Positions 2,282-5,664 of a stretch of 53,546 bases of DNA are shown here, in pieces; the first letter of the stretch is position 1, and every line of letters begins with the position of its first letter. The stretch is from NCBI GenBank assembly GCA_945918795.1, contig CAMEIT010000010.1, forward strand, positions 1 through 53,546. The letters run 5' to 3'. The position numbers were made by a program, and so were the translations under genes. Origin of the DNA: an uncultured Clostridia bacterium. GTDB taxonomy: Bacteria; Bacillota; Clostridia; HGM11327. A model generated the notes under the pieces. It was given only the letters and a program-made list of their open reading frames with translations, searched no databases and was not told where the DNA came from.

Positions 2282-2310
2282 TTGACAAATATGCAGATAA
2301 ATAGTAAAAT
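2282..2310 (+). promoter_or_regulatory. Sigma-A promoter for the murT-like gene
   Basis: TTGACA (2282-2287), 17-nt spacer, TAAAAT (2305-2310), 35 nt before the start codon. A weak hairpin, GCC-TTGCTT/AAGCA-GGC (about 2232-2254), lies between the XRE stop and this promoter. Confidence 0.75.
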
Positions 2311-2344: not shown

Positions 2345-3688
2345 ATGAAAATATTTATCGCGGTTGTTTTATGTAAATTCGTATATTTTATAGGTAAAAA
2401 GGTCGGCAGAGGCTCAAGCCTCCCAGGCAAAATAGTGCTTAAGCTTTTTCCGGATATACTCAGCAAAATTCGTATGCCTAAGACTGTCATAGCGGTTTCG
2501 GGCAGCAACGGCAAAACATCAACCGTTGAAATGATTGCGCACATACTTCAGCAAAACAACGTCAATGTAATATGGAATAAAGAAGGCTCCAACCAGATAG
2601 AGGGCGTTGCAACATTCCTGTTGAACAACTGCGACACAAAGGGCAACGTGCGCGCTGATGCAGTTCTGCTTGAATCCGACGAAAGATACGCTCGTCTCAC
2701 GTTCAAATATTTCACGCCCACGCACTTTGTCATAACAAACCTCTACCGCGACCAGATGACGCGCAATGCACACAGTGAATGGATTTTCGACATACTTAAG
2801 GATGCAGTAAAGCCCAAGACATTGCTTATACTCAACGCGGACGATCCTTTGGTATCATGCTTTGCAAGCGATCACGAAAAAGCCGTATATTTCAGTATGG
2901 ACGAGAACAAGTATTCGACAAAAACACCTCAGGGCGTATATAACGACGGCAAATATTGTCCTTTGTGCAAGGCGCCGCTTGAATATGAATACTACAATAT
3001 GGCTCACATAGGCAGATACAAATGCACCAGGTGCGTGCTTCACACAAATGACGCACTTTGCAGGATAACCGACATTGACCTTGAAAGCAAAAAGGCTGTG
3101 TTTGACGGCGAATATGAAATAAACCTCAATTTTGCAAGCTTATTTAACGTATACAATCTTCTTGCCGCGTTCACGCTTGCAACGGTTCTCGGCTTTGACA
3201 AGCAGAAAACAGCCGACGCACTGAACGGTTACATTCTCAAAAGCGGAAGAATAGTGCAGTTCAAAATAAACGAGCACAACGGTATTCTCCTCACGTCAAA
3301 GCATGAAAATTCAGTATCATACAATCAGTCGATCGATTACATAAAGAGGAATAACAAAAACAGCATTGTAATGATAATGGTTGACGCAATAAGCAGGAAG
3401 TATTACACAAGCGAAACAAGCTGGCTGTTTGACATAGATTTTGACGGACTTGCCTCATCAAAAGCCGAATCAATCATTCTTACGGGCAAATATGCGTATG
3501 ACCTTGCCGTCAGATTTGAATTTACAGGCATAAATCCGGACATTATTACCGTTGAGCCCAACATTGACAATGCTGTGAATATGCTTTCATCATCAGGCGG
3601 AGATGCAGACATTTTTGTTGTTACTTGCTTTTCGGACAAAGACAAGTTTCTCTCACGCATTACTCAAAATATCGTACACAACAACTGA
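2345..3688 (+). CDS. Divergent MurT-like Mur ligase family protein
   Basis: MurT is the ligase subunit of the lipid II isoglutaminyl synthase MurT/GatD, which amidates D-Glu of the peptidoglycan stem. This 447-residue protein has the Mur ligase P-loop GSNGKTST (53-60), the ILNADDPLV segment (162-170), and the MurT Cys4 zinc ribbon (C205, C208, C227, C230). At the C-terminal domain, the family motif around D-x-S-W, whose Asp completes the GatD triad in characterised MurT, reads TSETSWLFD here: Glu357 in place of Asp, and the preceding loop is about three residues longer. The usual K-N-P-x-G-x-N-Q-like segment is also altered (KHENSVSYNQ, 319-328). The ATP site looks competent while the interface has diverged. 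AAAGGA lies 8 nt before the ATG. It is probably co-transcribed with the GatD-like gene 90 nt downstream. Confidence 0.82.
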   Translation: MKIFIAVVLCKFVYFIGKKVGRGSSLPGKIVLKLFPDILSKIRMPKTVIAVSGSNGKTSTVEMIAHILQQNNVNVIWNKEGSNQIEGVATFLLNNCDTKGNVRADAVLLESDERYARLTFKYFTPTHFVITNLYRDQMTRNAHSEWIFDILKDAVKPKTLLILNADDPLVSCFASDHEKAVYFSMDENKYSTKTPQGVYNDGKYCPLCKAPLEYEYYNMAHIGRYKCTRCVLHTNDALCRITDIDLESKKAVFDGEYEINLNFASLFNVYNLLAAFTLATVLGFDKQKTADALNGYILKSGRIVQFKINEHNGILLTSKHENSVSYNQSIDYIKRNNKNSIVMIMVDAISRKYYTSETSWLFDIDFDGLASSKAESIILTGKYAYDLAVRFEFTGINPDIITVEPNIDNAVNMLSSSGGDADIFVVTCFSDKDKFLSRITQNIVHNN

Positions 3689-3778: not shown

Positions 3779-4525
3779 ATGGCAACTGATTTGATTATGA
3801 ATATCCGAATATTGTATTTATATCCCGAGCTTATGAATCTTTACGGTGAACGCGGAAATGTTCTCATGCTGAAAAAATGCTTCGAGCAGTCGGGGCTTGA
3901 CGTCATATGCGACTGCAAAGAGGCGTCGGATTCTCTTAACATTGCCGATTACGATATTGTCTACATCGGTTGCGGCACAGAATCCGCATCTTATAAGGCG
4001 CTTGAATGCCTCAGACCTTACAGACGTCAATTAGACGAATTTATAGAAAATAATAAGCTTCTTATTGCAACGGGTAATTCGTTCGAGCTGTTCGGTGACT
4101 ATATAAATGACGATAAATACGGTAATTTTGAAGGCCTGAAGCTGTTTGAATACGGTGTGTCGCGTACACATAAAAAACGATTCCTCGGTGACGCTGTCTT
4201 TTCTTGTATGCAGGATGAAAATAAGATTATCGGCTTTATAAATAAATGCTCAAAAATAAGCGGCGTAAGCTCTCCGCTGTTTAATGTTGAAATGGGGCTC
4301 GGTAATGATAACCTTAAATCGACTGAGGGCTTTACTTATAAAAATGTGTTCGCAACTAACCTCATCGGTCCTGTCCTCGTAAGAAATCCTTTTTTCTGCC
4401 AATTTGTCCTTAATGTCGCATATAAAAATATAGGCTTCGAACCCACCTCTACCCCTGATATGTCAAATCAGATTAAAGCTTATAACGTCGCTCTCTCCGA
4501 ACTCTTGGCATTGCAGCGTAAGTAG
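3779..4525 (+). CDS. GatD-like class I amidotransferase homologue lacking catalytic Cys and His
   Basis: A 248-residue homologue of GatD, the glutaminase partner of MurT. The fold is recognisable: ILYLYPELMNLYGERGN at the N-terminus and GFTYKNVFATNLIGPVLVRNP near the C-terminus. In ordinary GatD the nucleophile lies in A-I-C-G-G-[FY]-Q-L-L-G; here the aligned segment is A-T-G-N-S-F-E-L-F-G, with Gly99 at the Cys position. The catalytic His in G-F-E-N-H becomes Lys156 in G-F-I-N-K, and the His of the Y-x-H-G-P segment becomes Ile. So the glutaminase triad is absent as judged by eye. The frame is intact. The start could instead be 3797 (MNIRILYLYP), which matches family N-termini; neither start has a clear Shine-Dalgarno. 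It may be structural, use free ammonia, or have a new role. Confidence 0.8.
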   Translation: MATDLIMNIRILYLYPELMNLYGERGNVLMLKKCFEQSGLDVICDCKEASDSLNIADYDIVYIGCGTESASYKALECLRPYRRQLDEFIENNKLLIATGNSFELFGDYINDDKYGNFEGLKLFEYGVSRTHKKRFLGDAVFSCMQDENKIIGFINKCSKISGVSSPLFNVEMGLGNDNLKSTEGFTYKNVFATNLIGPVLVRNPFFCQFVLNVAYKNIGFEPTSTPDMSNQIKAYNVALSELLALQRK

Positions 4526-4837: not shown

Positions 4838-5563
4838 TTATTTATATACGGCTATGCCTTTTCTCTTATGTTCGCTTCTTTGATGGAATTTTTCAATAAC
4901 GGCGAGGTCCTTTTCATTTACCTTACCTTCGAGAAGATAAGTATCGATAGCGTCATAAGTAACGCCCATTTCCTGTTCATCGGTTTGACCCTCAAAAAGA
5001 CCTGCCGATGGTGCCTTTTTAATTATACATTCAGGTGCGTTAAGGTACTCAAGGAATTCGTATATTTCTCTTACAGTGAGGTCGGCAATAGGATTAAAGT
5101 CATGTGCGCCGTCTCCCCATTTTGTGAAATAACCCATATAAGCTTCGCTTCTATTACCCGTACCTGCAACAAGTCTGCCCTCGCTTGCCGCAATTGCGTA
5201 GAGCGTTATCATTCTGAGTCTCGGGGCAATATTAGCCACAGCCGCGTCATTCAGTGTTGTAACAGCGGACAAATTTGCCATTGCAAGTTCCTTTTGTGCT
5301 GTCAAATCAATAAGTCTCGTCTCAATATTGAACTGATTTGCCACTTCCATACCGTCATCCTTATCCATACCGAAATTTCTCTTGGAAGAACACGGCATAA
5401 TAATGCCAACCGTATTGTCGCAAGCCGCCTTACAAAGTATTCCGACCAAAGCGCTGTCCTTACCGCCGCTGTTGCCGTACACAATTCCGTTCACATGGCT
5501 TTCTTTAACAAGATTTTTAATAAAATCAACTCTCTTTTCAAATTCAACCGCGTAATCTCTCAT
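4838..5563 (-). CDS. nadE: NH3-dependent NAD+ synthetase
   Basis: Last step of NAD biosynthesis: adenylates nicotinic acid adenine dinucleotide and amidates it with ammonia. The protein has 241 residues, with no glutaminase domain, so ammonia is the N donor. The ATP-pyrophosphatase loop is NSGGKDSAL; GTGNRSEAYMGYFTKWGDG and HDFNPIADLT are family signatures of the nucleotide and deamido-NAD sites. The ATG at 5563 is preferred over an upstream in-frame start (5659) because AAGGAG precedes it by 7 nt and the family starts near the RDYAVEFEKRVDFI helix. It has its own promoter just past purA, so it can be expressed separately from the purine genes. The Lys in the SGGKDS loop is seen in other clostridial homologues, as far as I recall. 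Confidence 0.93.
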   Translation of the reverse strand: MRDYAVEFEKRVDFIKNLVKESHVNGIVYGNSGGKDSALVGILCKAACDNTVGIIMPCSSKRNFGMDKDDGMEVANQFNIETRLIDLTAQKELAMANLSAVTTLNDAAVANIAPRLRMITLYAIAASEGRLVAGTGNRSEAYMGYFTKWGDGAHDFNPIADLTVREIYEFLEYLNAPECIIKKAPSAGLFEGQTDEQEMGVTYDAIDTYLLEGKVNEKDLAVIEKFHQRSEHKRKGIAVYK

Positions 5564-5664
5564 AATAATTCTCCTTTTTATGTCAATCAAAAACCGACAC
5601 CGTTTAAAAGAAAGCCGTTTACAGGCAAATGTATGTCCGTAAACGTCTTTGTTTAACATGATTA

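Follow-up and report, generated by a model that had tools for sequence, protein, structure and literature searches.

Results and Discussion

Many gut relatives of Flavonifractor and Oscillibacter probably decorate their cell-wall precursors with something other than a glutamine-derived amide, because the ammonia-making half of the two-gene system involved has lost its working parts. We reach this view from a 53,546-nucleotide stretch of DNA from an uncultured Clostridia bacterium (hereafter the window), in which a gene for a GatD-like protein follows a gene for a MurT-type Mur ligase; we refer to these as the variant GatD and variant MurT, and to their clade as v1. Judged from sequence, the pair combines catalytic loss, conservation, pairing, replacement of the canonical enzyme, and an intact ATP and acceptor site. 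The picture of a lone oddity, which one might draw from the window by itself, is replaced by that of a conserved clade found in many gut Clostridia. This matters because the amidation of D-isoglutamate by MurT/GatD controls both cross-linking and the immune recognition of wall fragments, and is a pursued drug target.

Loss of the Glutaminase Catalytic Residues in the Variant GatD

The variant gatD gene (3779..4525, + strand) encodes 248 amino acids in an intact open frame, as the initial annotation of the window had stated, with an ATG at 3797 as a possible alternative start, judging from relatives. Its product carries a GATase_3 (CobB/CobQ-like) domain (Pfam 44 bits, cut-off 27) and matches solved GatDs down to an E-value of 3e-29 (phmmer). 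Pfam and NCBIfam profiles place both genes of the pair in the MurT/GatD families, with scores far under the equivalog cut-offs; for the variant GatD, the NCBIfam GatD scores are 115/86 bits against equivalog cut-offs of 400/450 bits, a miss that carries little weight because an intact clostridial pair likewise falls short (GatD of L013, 200/241 bits).

When the variant GatD is aligned with the GatDs of S. pyogenes, S. pneumoniae and S. aureus, the nucleophile position (Cys94 in S. aureus, Cys107 in S. pneumoniae) is occupied by Gly99 (codon 4073..4075, + strand), as originally claimed, and by Gly in 86/86 members of the clade alignment. The position of the catalytic His (His189 in S. aureus, His206 in S. 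pneumoniae, motif YxHGP) is occupied by Ile196 (4364..4366, + strand) and is never His among the 86 sequences, where we find Thr in 65, Ile in 17, Ser in 3 and Val in 1. The initial annotation had assigned the catalytic His to the position of Lys156 (4244..4246, + strand; Lys in 79/86) and had taken the Ile to replace a merely secondary His. These two roles were swapped, since mutagenesis marks the YxHGP His as catalytic (H189A is inactive, PMC5871853), while Lys156 lies opposite the accessory His of the GFENHGG motif; both histidines are still lost, and the alignment with the characterized S. aureus and S. pneumoniae enzymes upholds both catalytic losses.

Glutaminase activity of S. aureus GatD depends on each of C94, H189 and R128, and C94A and H189A are each inactive (PMC5871853), so that hydrolysis of glutamine by the variant GatD through the known mechanism would be impossible, in line with the earlier proposal that it cannot supply ammonia in this way. 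The S. aureus triad is formed by GatD C94 and H189 together with MurT D349 (PMC6113224), and its window counterpart is Gly99, Ile196 and MurT Glu357, with all three members substituted. The residue that captures glutamine (Arg128 in S. aureus) is retained as Arg134 in the window protein and as Arg in 85/86 relatives.

The AlphaFold model of the variant GatD (pLDDT 96.8) finds GatD chains as its best PDB matches, with TM values of up to 0.89 to GatD crystal structures (6gs2_A, TM 0.89, Foldseek). In this model, strand 94–98 ends and helix 99–105 begins at Gly99, with the strand-elbow-helix geometry predicted to be preserved, and the extra C-terminal helix that binds MurT is predicted at residues 229–247. 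The suggestion that the fold and the pairing with MurT are retained thus holds for the GatD fold and for gene adjacency, but not simply for MurT, the nucleophile-side and C-domain motifs of which have been remodeled along with GatD, as described below.

We consider it very improbable that glutaminase activity survives through relocated residues, such as Cys157 of the window protein or the His194 of its relatives. Cys157 does lie in what used to be the glutamine-binding loop and is present in 76/86 sequences, and 69/86 carry a His two positions ahead of the catalytic one; however, Cys157 gives way to Ala, Ser, Gly or Met in the remaining intact relatives, the window protein has Asn at position 194, and in the sister clades v3 and v4 the catalytic Cys and His are likewise missing, with Arg128 mostly gone as well. 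Given this variation at positions 157 and 194, a relocated catalytic Cys or His was rejected as unlikely. C65, in the C64/C65 region that had been named as a possible source of a replacement Cys, is A, S or C across the clade, and no other Cys or His in the window protein is a credible substitute for the lost pair. We note that the loop around Cys157 reads NKCS in place of NHGG.

Remodeling of the Variant MurT

The variant murT gene (2345..3688, + strand, 447 amino acids) neighbors gatD, and the sole site among strong promoter-like matches at the pair, TTGACA-17-TAAAAT (2282..2310, + strand; 11/12, a consensus match only), lies upstream of murT, which would be consistent with the two genes sharing one transcript. 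The MurT_C domain, the Mur middle domain with its P-loop, the truncated N-terminus and the Cys4 ribbon are all present. The P-loop GSNGKT (2501..2518, + strand; K59 and T60 in 89/89) and the Cys4 zinc ribbon formed by C205, C208, C227 and C230 (2957..3034, + strand; 89/89) are intact, and the ATP and acceptor residues K59, T60, N85, E110, D112, E113, N132, R135, D136 and R304 are kept in 89/89 variant MurTs, including the acceptor/Mg residues Asn85, Asp112 and Glu113 (S. pneumoniae numbering). Because the ATP, acceptor-carboxylate and zinc-ribbon residues tested are kept throughout, the variant MurT still looks able to make the acyl phosphate, even though the side on which a nucleophile arrives from GatD has in large part been rewritten.

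This rewriting can be followed across the 149 MurT columns that are conserved in both the canonical and the variant groups, 115 of which are identical and 34 different. The differing columns include neighbors of the P-loop and three positions in the GatD-facing loop, D139T, Y141N and E143H (His143 codon 2771..2773, + strand; His in 89/89, with Glu143 in 20/21 canonical MurTs). Further sites of difference are KNP to KHENS and DG to KYxT, both with insertions, R381Y, and the C-terminal VNYT (TCFS). The K-HE-N-S motif that stands in place of KNP (3299..3313, + strand) has two inserted residues and is present in 100% of the clade, and an S-R-K-Y-Y-T-S-E loop (3392..3415, + strand) stands in place of the canonical ..DG.D, with Glu357 at the position of the triad Asp (Asp349 in S. 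aureus, Asp355 in S. pneumoniae). This position is Glu in 73/89 and Asp in 16/89 variant MurTs, and the canonical ND..DG (DNxxDG) loop becomes VDAISRKYYTSE, which is two residues longer.

As the altered motifs include those of the C-domain for which contact with the stem peptide has been proposed (DNAAD, KNP), one could argue that the complex works on an acceptor other than the D-isoglutamate of lipid I/II. We regard this as improbable, since the acceptor-carboxylate residues Asn85, Asp112 and Glu113 are retained together with the truncated N-terminus and the Zn ribbon, and since this is the sole MurT of these genomes (see below). In fold comparisons, the amino-acid ligase pMurC (6vr7) ranks directly behind MurT/GatD as a match to the variant MurT, which counts in favor of the mechanism proposed below. 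That SRKYFT recalls the HxYTRT loop of MurC is an impression, because the C-domain fell outside the hhalign alignments of the variant MurT with MurC and MurE.

Distribution, Pairing and Selection

The changes seen in the window pair recur in about 100 Clostridia loci, including Flavonifractor, Pseudoflavonifractor, Massiliimalia and Oscillibacter, and the same pair is found in genomes G001, G003 and other Clostridia. A profile scan with the variant MurT clade, using one genome per species, gave at least 545 confirmed relatives. The best 80 of these loci come mostly from Oscillospiraceae and other gut Clostridia, among them isolates of Flavonifractor, Pseudoflavonifractor and Massiliimalia, and gatD directly follows murT in 77 of the 80, the remaining three being cut at contig ends. 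Within the class, 13/391 genomes carry the variant MurT (693–786 bits, with the next best match at 411 bits or less), and among 399 sampled genomes of the phylum we found no further v1 member outside the class.

That both catalytic residues are missing from one open reading frame could in principle reflect a decaying pseudogene or an assembly artefact, to which we assign a negligible probability. The frame is open, the same residues are found in more than 80 independent assemblies that include cultured isolates, and dN/dS for the closest pairs is 0.09–0.25 for gatD and 0.04–0.15 for murT, as expected under purifying selection; conservation, open frames and dN/dS values of 0.04–0.25 together refute decay or artefact.

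A second, canonical murT-gatD pair, which the initial annotation had suggested looking for, was sought, and no second MurT or GatD was found in the window genome (95% complete). A second MurT was likewise found in 0/13 variant genomes of the class, and 10/10 genomes reached through named loci have a single MurT. The chance of finding no second MurT in 13 genomes under independence is 8e-5, a value to be read with the proviso that genomes as a rule carry a single MurT in any case (PMC11915815). From this gene content, the variant pair is a replacement of canonical MurT/GatD in these organisms rather than a paralog. Two of the roles initially suggested for the window GatD, namely use of free ammonia and attachment of something other than an amide, are still live, but we think it unlikely that this GatD serves regulation alone, given that its complex contains the only MurT of the genome, with the ATP and acceptor sites intact.

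Across diverse loci, no third gene is conserved alongside the pair, and there is no conserved neighbor that would supply an amino acid. MurE is mostly of the mDAP (DNPR) type in variant and non-v1 comparison genomes alike, and thus a different residue 3 does not explain the change in MurT; a link to MurE type (mDAP or Lys) was rejected, as the groups do not differ. Separately, four of the variant genomes carry a second MurE-like ligase with a Lys-type motif (CDSN/SDPN) beside the mDAP-type MurE (L191, at G000:C95:1364-2710, and L192–L194), which is not a general feature.

Other Cys-less GatD Lineages and the Possible Use of Free Ammonia

A Cys-less GatD occurs in 35/129 class genomes inspected, a biased census as these genomes were drawn from matches to the window GatD, and these comprise one deep clade and at least three separate losses. 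In the MurT tree, v1, v2 (L010, L126), v3 and v4 fall on one side of a branch with an SH-aLRT of 96. The GatDs of all four lack both Cys and His, and those of v3 and v4 (L130, L205–L208, L236, L258, L279, L286 and others) mostly lack Arg128 as well. The v3 clade (L205–L208, L130, L243) has the MurT motifs RDSIMRNGHPE and SCYK..WSENTCW, and in the fourth clade (L236, L253, L258, L279, L286), where GatD has lost Cys, His and Arg128, MurT carries LQKDQVQRNGD, GTNGKS and IKQENP. The flanking genes close to four v3 members are those also found near v1 pairs from their genus, and these common flanks suggest in-place replacement between v3 and v1 at one locus. We rejected the idea that canonical and variant pairs of one genus share a locus, as the pairs in G134, G157, G292 and G310 are Cys-less v3 pairs, and the true canonical pairs sit away from the locus that holds the v1 and v3 pairs.

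The separate losses of Cys are found in a lineage comprising L218, L230, L234, L263 and L274, in L226, and in L290; in the first of these, the GatD His has been lost too and MurT is canonical. Cys-less GatDs are also seen at L247 and L270. In all of these, the nucleophile position holds Gly, Ala or Ser, and the neighboring MurT, where it is seen, has canonical motifs.

Such independent losses beside a canonical MurT would be expected if the variant complex were an ammonia-dependent isoglutaminyl synthase, still making D-isoglutamine from the free NH3 of a gut cell rich in ammonia, with GatD playing a structural role only. In vertebrate CPS1, a GATase-fold domain has lost its Cys and the enzyme uses free ammonia, and we count this as a parallel for such a route. 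In the window itself, a NAD synthase gene convergent with gatD (4838-5659, - strand) encodes a short NadE without a glutaminase domain, which fits the use of free ammonia in this organism. There is also laboratory precedent, as S. aureus MurT/GatD-C94G amidates with NH3 at pH 8.5, with GatD still required; however, the same complex is inactive with NH3 at pH 7.5 (PMC3266927). Moreover, free ammonia leaves unexplained why the nucleophile side of the variant MurT and its loop near GatD changed and were then frozen. Taking these points into account, we view the use of free ammonia as the main rival to the reading that we prefer, and as a real possibility, albeit one that we hold only tentatively.

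Proposed Mechanism

We favor, at not quite even confidence, the broader reading in which the variant complex joins a nucleophile other than glutamine-derived or free ammonia to the carboxyl group of D-isoglutamate, with all non-ammonia nucleophiles included. The two proteins would form a heterodimer, in which GatD, with its GATase fold and MurT-binding C-terminal helix preserved, would act as an obligate structural or substrate-binding subunit rather than a glutaminase, as suggested by the S. aureus complex, which still needs its GatD when given NH3 (PMC3266927). The variant MurT would use ATP to activate an acceptor carboxylate, which the kept residues and short N-terminus suggest is most likely the alpha-carboxyl of D-isoglutamate in the lipid-linked peptidoglycan precursor. 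It would then join to this an amine other than glutamine-derived ammonia, for example an amino acid, a non-ammonia amine being favored because the nucleophile side of MurT has been rebuilt.

The narrower proposal, that the clade in gut Clostridia attaches an amino acid and not an amide to the alpha-carboxyl of lipid II D-isoglutamate, with the former glutaminase as an amino-acid-binding or gating subunit, strikes us as rather doubtful. Several points weigh against a non-ammonia nucleophile: for an amino acid, the lack of a conserved supplying neighbor gene; the hhalign alignment to MurC, which stops short of the C-domain; and the loss of Cys and His in at least one other lineage with a canonical MurT, for which free ammonia would be the simpler explanation.

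Significance

A search of the open-access literature returned nothing relevant on an earlier description of a Cys-less GatD or on the muropeptides of these genera, and in a review from 2024 Oscillibacter is among the bacteria with undetermined peptidoglycan, the chemistry of the group being largely so (PMC11382707). Under homology-based annotation, D-isoglutamine would be ascribed to hundreds of species of gut Clostridia whose enzyme cannot use glutamine. The prediction is instead that the walls of Flavonifractor, Oscillibacter and Massiliimalia contain a different second residue, or are made by an ammonia-dependent route. Were an amino acid indeed attached, the enzyme would produce peptidoglycan substituted at the alpha-carboxyl and would bring hidden variation into the NOD1/NOD2 ligands.

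Comparison with Known Systems

The variant pair resembles the lipid II isoglutaminyl synthase MurT/GatD (S. aureus 6gs2, S. pneumoniae 6fqb, S. pyogenes 9sq9) in being a two-gene module with both folds, and shares with it the ATP/Mg and acceptor residues, the Zn ribbon, the C-terminal helix of GatD and the glutamine-capturing Arg, with about 25% identity between variant and canonical MurT and a TM of up to 0.89 for GatD. It differs in that the cross-subunit triad is gone (Cys94 to Gly99, His189 to Ile196 and MurT Asp349 to Glu357), and in that the C-domain loops and GatD-facing loop of MurT are rewritten. The Cys-less GATase-fold domain also recalls CPS1, which is however a different synthase and a single fused chain. 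Like the S. aureus C94G laboratory mutant (PMC3266927), which is inactive with glutamine, the variant has Gly at the nucleophile position with GatD present; unlike in the mutant, this Gly is natural and fixed, the His is lost too, and MurT is co-remodeled. The archaeal MurT-like and pMurC (6vr7) ligases (PMC11915815) similarly represent MurT-related ligation without a glutaminase, but have no GatD partner, whereas the variant retains the GatD fold, always encoded next to MurT. The variant pair is homologous to the MurT/GatD complex and would work like it, but it lacks defining catalytic features of both GatD and MurT and should therefore not be classed with the lipid II isoglutaminyl synthases.
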